DNA of 64,000 bases from a virus. How positions within the stretch are numbered: the stretch's first letter is position 1; each line of letters opens with the position of its first letter. Below are positions 28,300-42,894 of this stretch, in pieces. A program made the translations under genes and the position numbers. The notes under the pieces were generated by a model. The model did no database searches, was not told the DNA's origin, and worked only from the letters and a program-made list of their open reading frames with translations. The stretch is taken from positions 25,427-89,426 of the IMG/VR virus record IMGVR_UViG_3300012964_000002. One strand, 5' to 3'.

Positions 28300-29976
28300 A
28301 TGAGCAGCGCGACGAAGGTCGAACCCTACGCCGCGAGGAAGCTCGCCGGCGCGGCCGGGCGCCAGGTGATGGACGGCATCGCCCGCCTCGGCCTCTCCCC
28401 CCGGCAGCAGGCCCTGAACGACCTCTGGGCCTGGTACCGCTGCCAGCACTACGACGCGCGCGCGACCGACTGGGACGGCTCGAAGAGGAGCGAGGGGCTC
28501 GACCGCGAGGTCATCGCGACGGCGGGGTTCATCCCGCCCGGCTTCTACGACGCCTCGAGCGCGATGCTGCCGCTGAAGTTCCGGCGGCCGAGCGCGCCCT
28601 ACGCGCTCGCCAAGGTCATCGTCGACCGCTTCACCGGGCTGCTGTTCTCCGAGCGGCACCACCCGGAGGTTCGCGTCGAGGGGGACCCGAAGACCGAAGA
28701 CTACATGCGCGCGCTCGCGGAGGAGGGGCGGCTCTGGCCGTCGATGGTCCAGGCGCGCACCTACGGGGGCGCGATGGGCTCCGTCGCGCTCGGCTTCCAG
28801 CTCGTGGACGGCCGCCCGCGCTTCGAGGTTCACGACGCCCGTTGGTGCATCCCCGACTTCGCCGACCGCTCGACGCTCCGTCTCCGCTCCATCGAGAAGC
28901 GCTACCAGTACCCGGTCGAGCGGCGCGACGAGTACACCGGGAAGTGGGAGGAGGTGCCTCACTGGTACCGCCGCGTCATCGACGAGGAGAACGACACGCT
29001 GTACGAGCCTGCCGAGGTTCCGGAGGACGGGTCCGAGCCGGAGTGGGTGGTGCAGGAAGAGGTCAAGCACGGGCTCGGCTTCTGCCCGGTGGTCTGGCTC
29101 CAGAACCTTCCGGTGCAGGACTCCGTAGACGGCGACCCCGACTGCCACGGGATCTACGACCTCATCGAGAGCATCGACGCGCTCGTCGCGCAGGCGAACG
29201 TCGGCGTCATCGCGAACTGCGACCCGACCACCGTCATCACGACGGACGCCCAGATGCCGGAGGTCCAGAAGGGCTCGCGCCACGCCATCAAGCTTCCCGC
29301 CAACTCGAACGCGAAGTACCTCGAGCTCACCGGCTCCGGACCGGAGTCGGCGTTCAAGGCGGCGGACAAGCTCAGGGCCTACGCGCTCGAGGTCGCGCAG
29401 TGCGTCCTCGACAACCCCGACGACGCCGTCCAGAAGACGGCCACGGAGATCGAGCGCGTCTACTCCTCGATGCTCTCGAAGGCCGACGTGCTCCGCGAGC
29501 AGTACGGGCAGAAGGGCGTGCTGCCCGTGCTCGACATCGCGGTTCGCGCGGTCAAGCGGATCTCCAAGCCTCGCCCGGTGGCGGCGCCCGCGGACGGCGA
29601 GAAGCCGTCCGTCGTCGTGCAGACGGTCGCGCTCCCGCCGAAGCTGGAGCCCCAGCCGGACGGCACGGTCAAGACCGTGAAGCGCGAGCTCGGGCCGGGC
29701 GGGAACCCGCAGCTCCAGTGGGGCCCCTACTTCCCGCCGTCGCTCACCGACGTCCAGAACGCCGTCACGGCGGCCGGCAAGGCGAAGGACTCCGGGCTCA
29801 TCGACAGGGAGCACGCGAGCGGGTACGTCGCCTCGATGTTCCACATCGAGGACGTGCCCCAGATGCTCGAGAAGATCCGGACGGAGAAGGAGGAGGAGGA
29901 GCGCCGCGTGATGGAGCAGATGCTGCCTCCCGGCGGCGGAGACTTCGGCGGCGGGCCCGAGGGAGGCAACGTGTGA
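28300..29976 (+). CDS. Portal protein
   Basis: 558 residues, ATG after GGCGGAGGACC. After a helical start (RQQALNDLWAWYRCQHYDAR) it has PYALAKVIVDRFTGLLFSER, a strand-rich wing (YQYPVERRDEYTGKWEEV), the long stem helix region (GIYDLIESIDALVAQANVGV) and a C-terminal SGYVASMFHIED...LEKIRTEKEEEERR crown-like helix. Pattern, size and position after the terminase fit the dodecameric portal that forms the DNA channel and nucleates the prohead. Confidence 0.85.
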   Translation: MSSATKVEPYAARKLAGAAGRQVMDGIARLGLSPRQQALNDLWAWYRCQHYDARATDWDGSKRSEGLDREVIATAGFIPPGFYDASSAMLPLKFRRPSAPYALAKVIVDRFTGLLFSERHHPEVRVEGDPKTEDYMRALAEEGRLWPSMVQARTYGGAMGSVALGFQLVDGRPRFEVHDARWCIPDFADRSTLRLRSIEKRYQYPVERRDEYTGKWEEVPHWYRRVIDEENDTLYEPAEVPEDGSEPEWVVQEEVKHGLGFCPVVWLQNLPVQDSVDGDPDCHGIYDLIESIDALVAQANVGVIANCDPTTVITTDAQMPEVQKGSRHAIKLPANSNAKYLELTGSGPESAFKAADKLRAYALEVAQCVLDNPDDAVQKTATEIERVYSSMLSKADVLREQYGQKGVLPVLDIAVRAVKRISKPRPVAAPADGEKPSVVVQTVALPPKLEPQPDGTVKTVKRELGPGGNPQLQWGPYFPPSLTDVQNAVTAAGKAKDSGLIDREHASGYVASMFHIEDVPQMLEKIRTEKEEEERRVMEQMLPPGGGDFGGGPEGGNV

Positions 29977-30911: not shown

Positions 30912-32891
30912 ATGCGCGCGAAGCTTCTGCTTCTCGTCACCCTGCTCGTCCCGGCTCTCGTCTCGGCGCGCGCGTACCACGCGCTCCAGCCGCAGCCTGC
31001 CAGCCAGCTCCGCGGTTCCGCGTCGCTCGGCGGTGACACGCCCGTCGTCGTCAGTCTGCCGTTCTCCACGACGGGACGGATCCCCGACGACGCGAACGTT
31101 GTTTCACACGTCATCTTCGATGGAGCCAAGCTCGTCCCCATCATCGGTCCCGACTGGACGCAGAACGGCACCGTGCCGCAGAACGTCGCGTCGCCGTTCT
31201 ACCCGAGCGGCTTCTCCGGAGCGCAGCAAAAGGGATCTGGTCCATATTCGACGCTCAACTACTACTCGATTCCGGCGACGAACCCGTTGCAGTTCACGGG
31301 CGACTACTCCTGCCACGCGGTGGTGATCCCGGCCACATTCGCCGCCGCGCCCACCATCGCCGCGAACTCGAACGCGACGCCCAACCTCGGGTGGATCGCG
31401 CAGTTCAGCGGGACGGGCGCGGCCAGGATCTGGAGCAACGGAGTTTTCACCGACACCGCCAACTCCGCGGTCGCGAATGCTCCGGCGGTCGTGTCGTGGG
31501 GCCGTTCCGGCACTTCGCACTTCATCAAGCTGAACCTCGGGACGACGGCGACGGCAGTCACGCCGATCACGGCGGCCGTCGCGAACCCCGCGACCATCGG
31601 TGTCTTCGGCGGGATCGGTGCGCCCTTCACCGGAACGATTGTGGAGGTGGCGTGCTCTACCACGCCGTTCGTGGAAGTGACCGCGGGGACGGTTCAGCAG
31701 CGCGTCTTCGGCATGCTCGCGACGAGCGGCGCGTCGATCTCCGTCGCGCGCGCCATGACGGGCACGTACACGACGCCGGACGGGAACCTCTGGACCGCTC
31801 CTGCGGGCATCCTGCGCGTCGGTTGTGAGGACACCGCGGTGACGAAGTGCGGTGGGCTCGGAGAGCCCACGAGAACGAACCTTGCGCTTCAGTCCGAGGC
31901 GCTAGACAACGTCGCGTGGACGACGTCCGGAACTTGCACCGTCACGGCGAATCAAGGAACGATTCCGGGCTGGACTCCGGGCACGCTGGACAAGGTGCAG
32001 TGCACCGGGGCCGCGACGGACATTCGCTTTCAGACGGTGACGGTCGCGTCTTCCACCGGTCCGTTCACGTTCTCGTCGTGGGTGGCGGCCGACGCCGGGT
32101 CCAAGGTCGAGTCGATCAGGATGGGGGGGCTCACGGGAGGTGCCACTGGCTGTTCCTGCGCTCGCTCCGACGGTGGGGTCTGCACGACGGCCACGGCCAC
32201 GACGGACGGATGGGCCTACGGAACGTTCGGCACGACGCCTGCGCGTTTGATGCTCACCTGCTCCTCGACGGCGGCGACGGTTTCTGTCACGCCGTCCGTT
32301 CACGACGGGCAGTTCACTGTTACGTTCAACGTCGGAGGAATCTTCGGAGGCGCGCAGTTCGAGGTTGGTTCCTACGCCACGAGCTACGTCCCGACGACGA
32401 CCGTCGCCGTCGCGCGCAACGCCGATGGTGTGACGGTCGCGAACCCCGCTACGGTACAAAGCGCCTTGTGCGGGGACGGCACGTTCACGCCAGAGAACGG
32501 TGGATCGTGGATTGTACTTCCTAGCGGAGATCACTGGCCTTGGATGATCGGAACGTATGGCGTGACTGGTGGTTCTGGTCTTTCGGCCTCTAGTTCGGGA
32601 AGCATTTTCGCAGCGGGGACAAACGCACCAAACAGTGTGTTTTTCTCTTCTGTGGTTACACCGTTCGCGGCGGGGACGCCGCACAGGATCGCGGCTGGTT
32701 TCGCGGTCGGTGCAGCACCGACCTTGGCATTCGACGGTGTGAGTCAGACGGTGCTTCCTGGAGGTTCAGTGCCAGAGGTCTCGCCGCCGTCTGGCACCAT
32801 CACGCTCGGCGCGAGTGGCGCAGGCGCCAACGTGGGGAACTTCCCCGGGTACATCCGGAACCTCAAGATCCTGCGGAGCGTTTGCCGGTGA
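30912..32891 (+). CDS. Secreted beta-rich protein, LamG/carbohydrate-binding-like
   Basis: 659 residues, ATG after GGGAGGAGGTTCC. N-terminal signal peptide (RAKLLLLVTLLVPALVSARA). The mature protein is Gly/Thr/Ser-rich and beta-structured. A segment GGAQFEVGSYATSYVPTTT followed by VARNADGVTV is typical of phage proteins with concanavalin-like domains, and the end (DGVSQTVLPGG..., YIRNLKILRS) resembles another LamG domain. Likely an adhesin or glycan-binding protein. A Sec signal is unusual for a virion protein. Base composition falls locally around 32.4-32.8 kb, suggesting recent acquisition. Confidence 0.65.
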   Translation: MRAKLLLLVTLLVPALVSARAYHALQPQPASQLRGSASLGGDTPVVVSLPFSTTGRIPDDANVVSHVIFDGAKLVPIIGPDWTQNGTVPQNVASPFYPSGFSGAQQKGSGPYSTLNYYSIPATNPLQFTGDYSCHAVVIPATFAAAPTIAANSNATPNLGWIAQFSGTGAARIWSNGVFTDTANSAVANAPAVVSWGRSGTSHFIKLNLGTTATAVTPITAAVANPATIGVFGGIGAPFTGTIVEVACSTTPFVEVTAGTVQQRVFGMLATSGASISVARAMTGTYTTPDGNLWTAPAGILRVGCEDTAVTKCGGLGEPTRTNLALQSEALDNVAWTTSGTCTVTANQGTIPGWTPGTLDKVQCTGAATDIRFQTVTVASSTGPFTFSSWVAADAGSKVESIRMGGLTGGATGCSCARSDGGVCTTATATTDGWAYGTFGTTPARLMLTCSSTAATVSVTPSVHDGQFTVTFNVGGIFGGAQFEVGSYATSYVPTTTVAVARNADGVTVANPATVQSALCGDGTFTPENGGSWIVLPSGDHWPWMIGTYGVTGGSGLSASSSGSIFAAGTNAPNSVFFSSVVTPFAAGTPHRIAAGFAVGAAPTLAFDGVSQTVLPGGSVPEVSPPSGTITLGASGAGANVGNFPGYIRNLKILRSVCR

Positions 32892-33280
32892 GGTTCCTGA
32901 TCGTCATCCTGGCGCTCGCCGCCTGCGCGCCCTGCCCTTCCCAGGGGGCGGGCCCGGTCACCCACGTCGGCGCGCCTCCGCCCGGCGCCGACGTGGTGGT
33001 CGCGGTCGCGCGCGAGCGATGCGCCTTCTCCGGCACGGTGACGTGGCAGGCCGGCCTCTTCGTCTGCGACTACTCGGGCATTCCCTACTGCTCCGGATGG
33101 CAGCGCGCGTACCCAGCTTGCGCGCCGCTCGACGCCTGGGTGGCCTACGCCGAGCCCGTCACGAGAAGCGCGCTCGCGTGGGAGGTCGGGAATTACTGCC
33201 TCGACAACGAGGATGGCCCACGGGTGGCGGAGTGGTCCGAGGCGGTCAACGCGGAAGCGTCGAGGAGGATGGCCCCGTGA
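32888..33280 (+). CDS. Putative lipoprotein
   Basis: 130 residues, GTGA-coupled. MRFLIVILALAAC has a lipobox-like LAAC, so Cys13 would be acylated. The mature part has several Cys (CAFSG, VCDYSGIPYC, PAC, YCLDN) and Trp residues. Third exported product in a row. It might alter the host envelope after infection or lysogeny. Confidence 0.6.
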   Translation: MRFLIVILALAACAPCPSQGAGPVTHVGAPPPGADVVVAVARERCAFSGTVTWQAGLFVCDYSGIPYCSGWQRAYPACAPLDAWVAYAEPVTRSALAWEVGNYCLDNEDGPRVAEWSEAVNAEASRRMAP

Positions 33281-40575: not shown

Positions 40576-41967
40576 ATGCCGGACTTCTCTACCATCCTCC
40601 AGGCCCCGGAGATCCGGGCCATCGTCCAGGAGAACCTCCTCGAGCGCGCGTTCCACGACGCGCTGTTCCCCCGGCTCCTCTTCCGCGGAGAGGCGACGCC
40701 GCAGGTCTGGCCGGCCAGCGTCGGCGACACGATGGTCTTCTCGGGCGTGGGGCTCATCAAGCCGAAGATGGCCGCCCTCCCGCCCGGCGTCGACCCCCTG
40801 CCCTCGTCCTACCAGAGCGAGCAGTGGACCGCGCAGCTCCAGCAGTACGCGGACACGATCGACACGCACATGCCGACGAGCATCGTGGCGATCGCCAACC
40901 TGTTCCTCCGGAACGCGCACCAGCTCGGCCTCTCCGCCGGGCAGGCGCTGAACCGCGTCGTGCGCGACCGCCTCTACAACATCGGCGCGAGCGGCAACAC
41001 CGTCACGACCGCGGCGGCCGTCGCGCCGACCAACCTGGTTCCGGTGGCCCGTCTCGGCGGGTTCACCCGCGCGCGCAACCCGCTGCTCGCCGGCGGCTCG
41101 CCGGTGCGCTTCGACGCCGTCTCCGCCGCGAACCCGCTCGCCGCGACCGTCGGAGGCGTGGCCGTCTCCATCGTCGGCTTCGCGGCCGCGACGCCCGGCG
41201 ACGAGGTCGGTCCCGGCACGCTCACGCTCGCCGCGAACATCGCCGCGTTCGCGCTCCGCGCCGCGGTCGTGGCGACCGACGCCAGCGTGATCCAGCGGGT
41301 CGGGGGCGGCACCACCATCGACGCGCTCGTGGCGGCGAACATCCTCACGCTCGCCGACATGCGCTCCGCCGTGGCCCGCTTCCGCCAGCAGAACGTCCCC
41401 GAGCAGCCGGACGGACAGTTCCACTGCCACCTCAGCCCCCGGGCCGAGGGCGAGCTGTTCGCCGACAACGAGTTCCAGCGGCTGCTCACTGCCCTGCCCG
41501 ACTACTACATGTACAAGCAGTTCGCGATCGGGCAGCTCCTCGGCATCGCGTTCTTCCGGAACAGCGAGGCGCCCATCGCCCAGACCGTGTCGGGCGGCGC
41601 GACGGCGAGCTACGACCCGGCGGACCCGCTCGGCCTCGAGCTGTTCGTCGGCGGCACGACCGCCGGGCTCGCCGTGGAGCACTCGCTCCTCGTGGGCCAG
41701 GGCGCGATCTACGAGTACCACCAGGACCTCTCGCAGCTCATCACCGAGGCCGGCGTGACCGGCCGCGTGGGCGAGCCCCGGATCACGAACAACGGCATCG
41801 AGGTCTTCACGGACCGGATCCAGCTCATCATCCGCTCGCCGCTGAACCGGCTCCAGGATCTCGTCGCGACGTCCTGGCGGTTCATCGGCGACTGGCCGGC
41901 CCGCACGGACGCCACCGTCGGCGACGCCGCCCGCTACAAGCGCGTGGTCGTCATCGAGCACGCGTAG
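40576..41967 (+). CDS. Major capsid protein (N4 gp56-like/HK97 fold)
   Basis: 463 residues, ATG after AAGAAGGAGACGAGCG. N-terminal arm LERAFHDALFPRLLFRGEA, then DTMVFSGVGLIKPK, an Ala/Val-rich insert at about 175-235, and QFHCHLSPRAEGELFADNEF, the segment typical of the N4-gp56 capsid family. The C-terminal VGEPRITNNGIEVFTDRIQ and LQDLVATSWRFIGDW belong to the axial domain. Forms the icosahedral shell. Own promoter upstream and structured region downstream. Confidence 0.85.
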   Translation: MPDFSTILQAPEIRAIVQENLLERAFHDALFPRLLFRGEATPQVWPASVGDTMVFSGVGLIKPKMAALPPGVDPLPSSYQSEQWTAQLQQYADTIDTHMPTSIVAIANLFLRNAHQLGLSAGQALNRVVRDRLYNIGASGNTVTTAAAVAPTNLVPVARLGGFTRARNPLLAGGSPVRFDAVSAANPLAATVGGVAVSIVGFAAATPGDEVGPGTLTLAANIAAFALRAAVVATDASVIQRVGGGTTIDALVAANILTLADMRSAVARFRQQNVPEQPDGQFHCHLSPRAEGELFADNEFQRLLTALPDYYMYKQFAIGQLLGIAFFRNSEAPIAQTVSGGATASYDPADPLGLELFVGGTTAGLAVEHSLLVGQGAIYEYHQDLSQLITEAGVTGRVGEPRITNNGIEVFTDRIQLIIRSPLNRLQDLVATSWRFIGDWPARTDATVGDAARYKRVVVIEHA

Positions 41968-41974
41968 GAGCGCG

Positions 41975-42445
41975 CACCCGGTGGGGGACCTCCTCCACAC
42001 CTCGGGGCGGTCGGTCGGCGAGGCCGGCCGCCCCATCACTTTGCCCGCCTCGCGCGGGCATCGCGCCGACCTCGCGTCGGCACCAGGGATGTGCGCTCGA
42101 CAGAGCGTCACCAGCCAGGCTGACACCGAGGCTGGACATCCCGCCGGCTCTTGCGACTCTCCCGAGTCGCGTGTCAGGGAGCCGCGTCATGCACGGGCCT
42201 CGTGCCCGTCGAACGGCACCAGCGCAAACCCCGGCTTCGCGCCGCGGAACCGCGCCTGCCGAAACAATGGTGGCCCCGCCTTTCGGCGCTTCGGCGCCAA
42301 CCCCGGCGGAGACATCTCGGACGCTCCGAGCCTTCGTGCTCACCCCCCGCGTCCTCGTAGGGCTCGTCGCACCGTCATCGCGCTCACCCCACGGCGGGGG
42401 CTTCCGCCGGTCAACCGCGCGAAGATCGCGACGAGCCCTGCCACC
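41975..42445 (+). ncRNA. Candidate structured RNA downstream of the capsid gene
   Basis: The 522-nt gap 41968-42489 has no convincing gene but many non-overlapping stems: 41981-41986/41993-41998; 42004-42010/42028-42034; 42042-42048/42054-42060; 42065-42070/42076-42081; a junction closed by 42086-42092/42136-42142 around 42093-42108 and 42111-42116/42130-42135; 42145-42150/42179-42184 around 42153-42159/42164-42170; 42193-42198/42204-42209; 42276-42280/42305-42309 around a UUCG tetraloop stem 42285-42298; 42316-42321/42325-42330; and a perfect 12-bp helix 42359-42370/42428-42439 around two more stems. Three hairpins share a CTCGC/T loop. An open frame from 41981 lacks an RBS and has an unlikely composition. 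Confidence 0.45.
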
Positions 42446-42489
42446 GCTTTCTGAACCTCGAGAACCGAAGCCCAGGACGGAGACGGAAG

Positions 42490-42894
42490 ATGGCGGCCCC
42501 GGCGAGCAGCGGAAAGAAGCGCGGGTGGGACCCTGTGGCGGCCGCCGGCATCCCCGGCGAGCCTCTGGACGTGACCCCCTCGAAGCCGGAGGCGGATCCG
42601 GTGAACCCTTCCATCCACGACCCCACGCCCCCTCCTCCGCCCCCGAACCCGGAGAGCAGCGCGACCGTGGAGAGGCTGCAGCGCGCCATCGAGGCGGCGA
42701 AGCGCGAGCCCGCGCTCGTCCCCCCTCCGCCGACGCCCCCGCCCCCGGTCGGCCCGGCGTTCCGCGTCCGGGAGACCCGCGTCGTCAACCTGCGCGGAAG
42801 CCTCACGACGCTCGCGCGCGGCAGCATCGTGCGCGCGGTCTCGCACGACCTCGCCTCGATCCGGGAGCAGGGCGTGCCGCTCGACCCGGTGTAG
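42490..42894 (+). CDS. Pro-rich protein with small C-terminal barrel-like domain
   Basis: 134 residues, ATG after GACGGAGACGGAAG. The first 90 residues are Pro-rich and disordered (two poly-Pro runs). The end FRVRETRVVNLRGSLTTLAR plus GSIVRAVSHD looks like the small beta domain that phages place after capsid genes. May be a head-tail joining or minor capsid protein. Confidence 0.58.
   Translation: MAAPASSGKKRGWDPVAAAGIPGEPLDVTPSKPEADPVNPSIHDPTPPPPPPNPESSATVERLQRAIEAAKREPALVPPPPTPPPPVGPAFRVRETRVVNLRGSLTTLARGSIVRAVSHDLASIREQGVPLDPV

Follow-up and report, generated by a model that had tools for sequence, protein, structure and literature searches.

A conserved structured RNA behind the major capsid gene of uncultured tailed phages

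What occupies a gap of about half a kilobase directly behind the major capsid gene of a phage, if it holds no convincing gene? To our knowledge, few classes of large structured RNA come from phages, and the locus described here raises the question of whether another one is encoded among head genes. The sequence is a 64,000-nucleotide stretch (the window, meaning the whole stretch of DNA analyzed) of an IMG/VR virus record whose contig has 89,426 bases. The gap, at 41968-42489, follows the major capsid gene (40576-41967) and is bounded on its other side by the next open frame (42490-42894); a scaffold gene (PF06810) is present upstream and a tail sheath gene (phrog_23) downstream. The capsid protein of the window has no Pfam match, and the window copy of the next gene matches neither PHROG nor Pfam; in 20 relatives this next gene is similar in a short C-terminal part and variable in its N-terminal part, as judged by eye. 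A first-pass annotation, made from the letters alone, had described the gap as hairpin-dense and had suggested a large phage non-coding RNA, a packaging-linked element or a late 3' UTR with a terminator.

Folding and coding signature of the gap

On the + strand the gap folds at -274.4 kcal/mol, compared with -239.1 +/- 6.5 for 100 dinucleotide shuffles of 41968-42489 (z -5.43, 0/100 as good), so that the energy comparison proposed by the first-pass annotation comes out far better than shuffled sequence. Along the 64 kb, 86 of the 113 possible 412-nt windows were run on the + strand with 20 shuffles each (mean z -0.26, sd 1.44), and 42036-42447 (412 nt) ranks first, with the lowest z, -4.80; the fold is therefore more than mere high GC. 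The lowest fold z values elsewhere in the window belong to 29264-29675 (-3.93) and 32560-32971 (-3.50), both of which overlap long open frames. Chance folding of GC-rich DNA could draw on the GC content of about 73% at the gap and on the - strand, which also gives a low z (-2.78, again 0/100 shuffles as good). Against it stand the z of -5.43 for the gap, the lowest z of 86 windows and the covariation across relatives described below, and we reject this explanation as having next to no probability.

Every stem to which the first-pass annotation had given coordinates appears in the computed fold: the 12-bp helix 42359-42370/42428-42439, the junction closed by 42086-42092/42136-42142, the UUCG stem 42285-42298 and the hairpin 42004-42034. 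Its three loop hairpins could also be located, with CTCGC at 42042-42060 and 42065-42081 and CTCGT at 42193-42209. A closing helix (42269-42274/42440-42445) and a pseudoknot (42387-42409) are additional to the stems it had listed.

An open frame of 157 aa does exist at 41981-42454, and tblastn finds it in the relative L059 (35.7%, E 3e-11), a result that conserved DNA would give anyway. Its mismatches to L059 are spread evenly over the codon positions (43/146, 48/144, 45/145), and indels that are not in threes make up 4/9 of those relative to L059 and 8/12 of those relative to L003. The frame has no protein family match, and its best match to L003 and L051 is at E > 1. Since codon-position bias and frame-keeping indels are both missing, we reject a translated gene here as extremely improbable, and the earlier description of the gap as holding no convincing gene agrees with the absence of a coding signature in the frame from 41981.

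The features of the locus are given below. Compensatory cells were counted in two relatives after the helices of the window fold had been scored on an alignment of the window with L059 and L003; R1 is the model of the core hairpin.

40576-41967, + strand: major capsid protein gene, 463 aa, directly upstream of the gap (phrog_1357, E 1e-13; 46 IMG/VR relatives)
42004-42034, + strand: first hairpin, of 13 bp, resembling a terminator in some relatives but here with no U-run (fold, relatives by eye, terminator scan)
42036-42452, + strand: conserved structured RNA, approximate limits with predicted ends (rank 1/86 by fold z; alignment with L059 and L003)
42042-42060, + strand: hairpin with CTCGC loop (3 compensatory cells in 2 relatives)
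42065-42081, + strand: hairpin with CTCGC loop (2 compensatory cells; just 3/6 pairs kept in L059 and 3/6 in L003)
42086-42142, + strand: three-way junction with closing stem 42086-42092/42136-42142 and arms 42093-42108 and 42111-42135 (compensatory cells 4, 4 and 5)
42145-42184, + strand: element B, that is stem, inner hairpin, GTGTCAG (TACGCCAG or similar elsewhere) and stem (compensatory cells 4 and 8)
42193-42209, + strand: hairpin with CTCGT loop (4 compensatory cells; 3/6 and 4/6 pairs kept)
42214-42262, + strand: core hairpin GCAAACC..bulged Y..GGAACCGC plus outer stem (model R1 44.8 bits, E 1.1e-8, the window row being one of the model's 28 seeds; covariation)
42269-42274, + strand: 5' strand of the helix closing the 3' domain, GGTGGC (pairs with 42440-42445, unchanged in the window, L059 and L003)
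42276-42309, + strand: stem 42276-42280/42305-42309 with UUCG hairpin 42285-42298 (compensatory cells 2 and 1)
42359-42439, + strand: 12-bp helix 42359-42370/42428-42439 plus inner stems around the pseudoknot (inner stems with 3 and 5 compensatory cells)
42387-42409, + strand: predicted H-type pseudoknot, stem 1 42387-42390/42397-42400, stem 2 42392-42396/42405-42409 (38-row alignment)
42440-42452, + strand: 3' end, GCCACC plus a short U-rich stretch, just TTT in the window (T-run statistics in relatives)
42490-42894, + strand: next open frame, 134 aa, with the same gene type downstream in relatives (tblastn to L059, L003 and L051)

At least one compensatory change is seen in 17 of the 25 window-fold helices. 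In this three-row alignment, in which the core hairpin is misaligned, some helices are poorly kept, for example 42214-42218/42257-42261 (0 and 1 of 5 pairs) and 42319-42324/42349-42354 (4 and 0 of 6), and the 12-bp helix keeps 12/12 pairs in L059 and 6/12 in L003. The layout of element B recurs in 11 other rows, as seen by eye.

Covariation and position in relatives

The capsid protein of the window finds 46 relatives in IMG/VR, and a capsid profile finds 139, of which 80 were kept; these overlap much with the first 46, and one Armatimonadetes MAG contig was added. The next gene follows the capsid gene after 80-150 nt in some relatives and after about 220-670 nt with no convincing gene in many, and RNA-bearing gaps exceed about 670 nt where another open frame is inserted. 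Among 22 such gaps, one of them that of the window, fold z is below -2 in 21, the exception being L019 (z -1.53); in this set L035 was trimmed to its last 429 nt, L039 was folded with its tRNA and short gaps were left out. The layout often seen in relatives consists of a core hairpin, a 3' H-type pseudoknot and a GCCACC end, often with a U-run, between the capsid and the next gene.

Among the inserted frames, the one at 6439-7110 of L035 matches HNH endonuclease profiles, and frames in the same gap of L075, L100 and L121 resemble it by eye, which suggests homing near the 3' end of the capsid gene. Two further gaps, those of L039 and L040, contain a tRNA-Tyr (GTA; L039:6531-6617 and L040:2881-2967), and neither has a core match to model R1.

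Many relatives' gaps share the hairpin GCAAACCC-stem-(bulged Y)-GGAACCGC. In an alignment of 28 segments hand-picked for showing this motif, 92.6% of 336 cells are paired, compared with 33.1-39.9% when partners are slid, and the covariation score of 0.568 (shuffles 0.131 +/- 0.021) is equalled by 0/500 shuffles. To lessen selection, the exact inner motif was searched across IMG/VR, which gave 29 stretches, with the outer stem kept out of the pattern. This flanking stem is paired in 61/68 cells over 17 distinct flanks, compared with 42.6% with swapped partners. For eight distinct flanks from contigs independent of the capsid searches, the figures are 31/32 and 47%, two of these eight (L142 and L146) being copies of the seeds L088 and L117.

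Model R1 was run over 100 chosen sources (793 kb), from which near-copies and repeats had been removed by eye, and yielded 44 matches at E <= 0.011. For 43 of the 44 a capsid gene lies upstream at a distance of 107-843 nt; the remaining match, in L142, is too close to the contig end to judge. Leaving out the window itself, these capsids share 44-75% identity with its capsid, the lowest value, about 44%, being that of L128. Sixteen of the 44 matches are outside the seed set, some being near-copies of seeds. In whole records, 32/40 matched at E <= 0.05, 31 of them once. The records of L039 and L037 have their sole matches (E 5.5e-4 and E 0.007, respectively) outside the capsid gap, where chance probably explains them, and in the record of the window a second, weak match turns up at 28397-28449 of the window (E 0.034). 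Among 21 long gaps with no clear core, 13 show a pseudoknot-like place by eye.

The 3' pseudoknot reads approximately CCC-(Y)A-CGGC-GGG-UA-GCCG-GUU. Its alignment comprises 38 of 53 anchors, which were picked by eye and partly for complementarity, with 15 odd ones dropped and the misaligned row L010 retained. Within it, stems 1 and 2 are 84.2% and 88.2% paired, and for each of the seven pairs at least one row has both partners changed. In the same MAFFT alignment the stem enclosing the pseudoknot is paired in 42% of cells, a value that we attribute to a shifting register there. RNAalifold, unguided, predicted three pairs in all on this alignment, every one in stem 2. A free pseudoknot search over 42 loci, with 20 shuffles each, gave no consistent advantage over shuffled sequence at the level of individual loci: scores averaged 32.1 for real and 23.3 for shuffled sequence (sd 8.8), and at many loci the real score did not exceed those of the shuffles. 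The case for the predicted pseudoknot is its fixed place together with the stem pairing in the 38 rows.

The putative closing helix GGUGGC/GCCACC is moderately supported: pairing of at least 5 bp occurs in 24 of 31 loci with the 3' motif (a further 7 of the 38 had no regex 3' motif), compared with 41% with a shuffled 5' window and 64% with another locus's window. The RNA of relatives ends in a GCCAC- or GCCGC-like sequence, with the start of the next gene after it. Runs of at least four T within 90 nt after the pseudoknot occur in 27/51 loci, compared with 397/4809 control windows (8.3%), the runs of some loci being located elsewhere than at the RNA 3' end. A terminal U-run followed by the next gene's start hints at a unit that has a 3' end of its own. 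As to the strand, G-U cells stand to A-C cells at 7 to 7 in the core and at 17 to 5 in the pseudoknot, so that it is the pseudoknot by itself that favors the + strand.

The structure is conserved, its position behind the capsid gene is constant and a coding signature is missing. The covariation in relatives that the first-pass annotation had named as a check is found in the core, in its flanks and in the pseudoknot stems, and its suggestion of a large phage non-coding RNA is borne out by fold energy, covariation and the lack of coding signature together. We are close to certain that the gap element of the window belongs to a genuine RNA family.

An old origin followed by occasional or repeated loss is possible for the element. 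On a quick capsid tree of 73 rows, in which 23 of 70 inner branches are weak, four changes suffice to account for the long-gap state, a number compatible with such a history of several losses; gap class was set by length, giving 53 long and 18 short among 71 classified rows (L121 and L122 unclassified), and the 18 short gaps are too short to hold the RNA. A DNA search of cultured phages by blastn, which would overlook diverged copies, gave no match. By capsid, cultured kin are Kromp (31% identical) and phiKX1 (26%), and behind their capsid genes lie 58 nt and 0 nt, which is insufficient space for the RNA. A scan of assembled-genome contigs confirmed one capsid relative (L126) among 34 pattern matches, so these phages seem to be rarely caught in assembled genomes.

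Comparison with known phage RNAs

Could the element be a divergent representative of a large phage RNA family already described, such as GOLLD or ROOL, or of another Rfam family? Its similar size, its more constant 3' half and looser 5' half and the tRNA in the gaps of two relatives all point that way. However, Rfam 15 at gathering score gives no match in the window, and in 16 relatives just the tRNA of L039. Below gathering score (up to E 5-10) the window gives merely unconvincing fragments of CRISPR-DR28, chrB-a and SorX, and 15 loci give one FourU, far from the RNA. With no RNA match in Rfam 15 for window and relatives, a known Rfam family was rejected. GOLLD (RF02032) was likewise rejected, its covariance model matching 0/5 records at E <= 10; among 14 control genomes this model rang in five, in none over the cut-off. 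The ROOL (RF03087) model matched 0/4 records at E <= 10, a weak test as its controls were silent too; the scans against all of Rfam gave no ROOL hit either. Taken together, membership of a known family seems very improbable to us.

According to one account (PMC12286853), GOLLD has a constant 3' region and a looser 5' region, with a tRNA sometimes in its linker or nearby, tRNAs occur near both GOLLD and ROOL, and ROOL is a large phage RNA with several pseudoknots. The window RNA resembles GOLLD as a large structured phage RNA with such a division into regions and a tRNA sometimes near, and resembles ROOL as a large phage RNA with a predicted pseudoknot. It differs in size, many GOLLD members exceeding 800 nt according to the same source (PMC12286853) and the window RNA having about 400 nt. 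It differs also in place, lying behind a capsid gene, whereas GOLLD and ROOL are often reported near tRNA islands.

Two other phage RNAs invite comparison. The Mu-gpT-DE motif of Weinberg et al. 2017 is reportedly a structured RNA downstream of the Mu-like major capsid gene (gpT), a position like that of the window RNA; the capsid protein here has no match to a Pfam family. The name of the motif is absent among the literature matches listed. The packaging RNA (pRNA) of phi29 is a phage RNA tied to head function, which is the likeness, but it has about 170 nt and lies near the genome end, whereas the window RNA lies behind the capsid gene and is without an Rfam match. Among the literature matches listed, from a coverage that mostly excludes subscription journals, no description of such an RNA was found.

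Free late RNA or control region of the late mRNA

Our preferred reading, at a probability slightly below 60%, is that the late head operon gives rise to a previously undescribed class of large non-coding RNA, which is free-standing and acts as an RNA or RNA-protein particle. The gap would encode an RNA of about 400 nt here, with other measured gaps of about 220 to 670 nt, that would be transcribed late, together with the head genes. The RNA would start at or just past the hairpin behind the capsid gene and end with GCCACC and a U-rich tail, just ahead of the next gene's ribosome-binding site. Its 5' half, with the three-way junction, element B and hairpins, would be variable, and its 3' half, with the core hairpin and a closed domain of long helix and H-type pseudoknot, more constant. 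Near-invariant unpaired letters, those of the core (CAA..C / GAACCG) together with others surrounding the pseudoknot, form a putative partner-binding site. Most likely the RNA would accumulate free-standing, in proportion to capsid mRNA, and it or its particle may act in the late phase, as is imaginable by analogy for GOLLD and ROOL. The functions of these two are not understood (PMC12286853).

The main argument against a free RNA is the constant position behind the capsid gene. The clear examples lie between the same two genes, so this position is equally expected of a cis-acting control region within the late mRNA, one that protects or ends the capsid mRNA or sets the output of the next gene, be it a terminator, a processing site or a protein-controlled leader. 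The 43 of 44 matches at this place speak for such a region, as does the U-run preceding the next gene's start. Terminator-like hairpins in several relatives count on the same side: in L015, L054 and L083, among others, a U-run comes after the first hairpin past the capsid gene, as seen by eye, and this hairpin may end the capsid mRNA. In the window, the terminator that the first-pass annotation had placed at 42004-42034 fared less well: the 13-bp hairpin is real but has no U-run, a terminator scan found 0 sites in 41800-42600, and a late 3' UTR ending there is unsupported in this window.

Relatives that lack the RNA also keep a hairpin and a ribosome-binding site at this place, by eye, which again fits cis control. 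Two of them, L018 and L042, have in the first 80 nt behind the capsid gene TGCTACAAT or TGCTACACT, resembling an extended -10 promoter, followed by the hairpin and the ribosome-binding site (all by eye). Around the window RNA, a promoter-like site was not found.

Against cis control, the element is far bigger than a terminator or stabilizer requires, conserved loops and pseudoknot surpass the needs of a simple 3' UTR, and some relatives manage without it. Moreover, late-operon gene order is conserved anyway, so a fixed position is weak evidence for action in cis. Owing to its size, its conserved loops, its resemblance to GOLLD and ROOL and an end that looks like a terminator, we favor the free late RNA over a cis-acting control region, and we regard the latter, all its variants taken jointly, as a serious but rather less probable reading. 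For the packaging-linked element suggested at first pass, the position is the one point in favor.

A further-reaching proposal is that the free late RNA is an undescribed class of large pseudoknotted phage RNA, tied by position to the capsid gene, that builds particles for head assembly or late infection and would stand beside GOLLD and ROOL as a counterpart of separate ancestry in the head operon; we put this forward tentatively, as somewhat doubtful. Some phage head operons appear to carry an RNA class that recurs in dozens of uncultured tailed phages. Its occurrence behind capsids down to about 44% identity means that a link of head production to a large RNA can be tested, with relatives that have no space for the RNA as built-in comparisons, and further members of the class can be found by means of the core motif and model R1.
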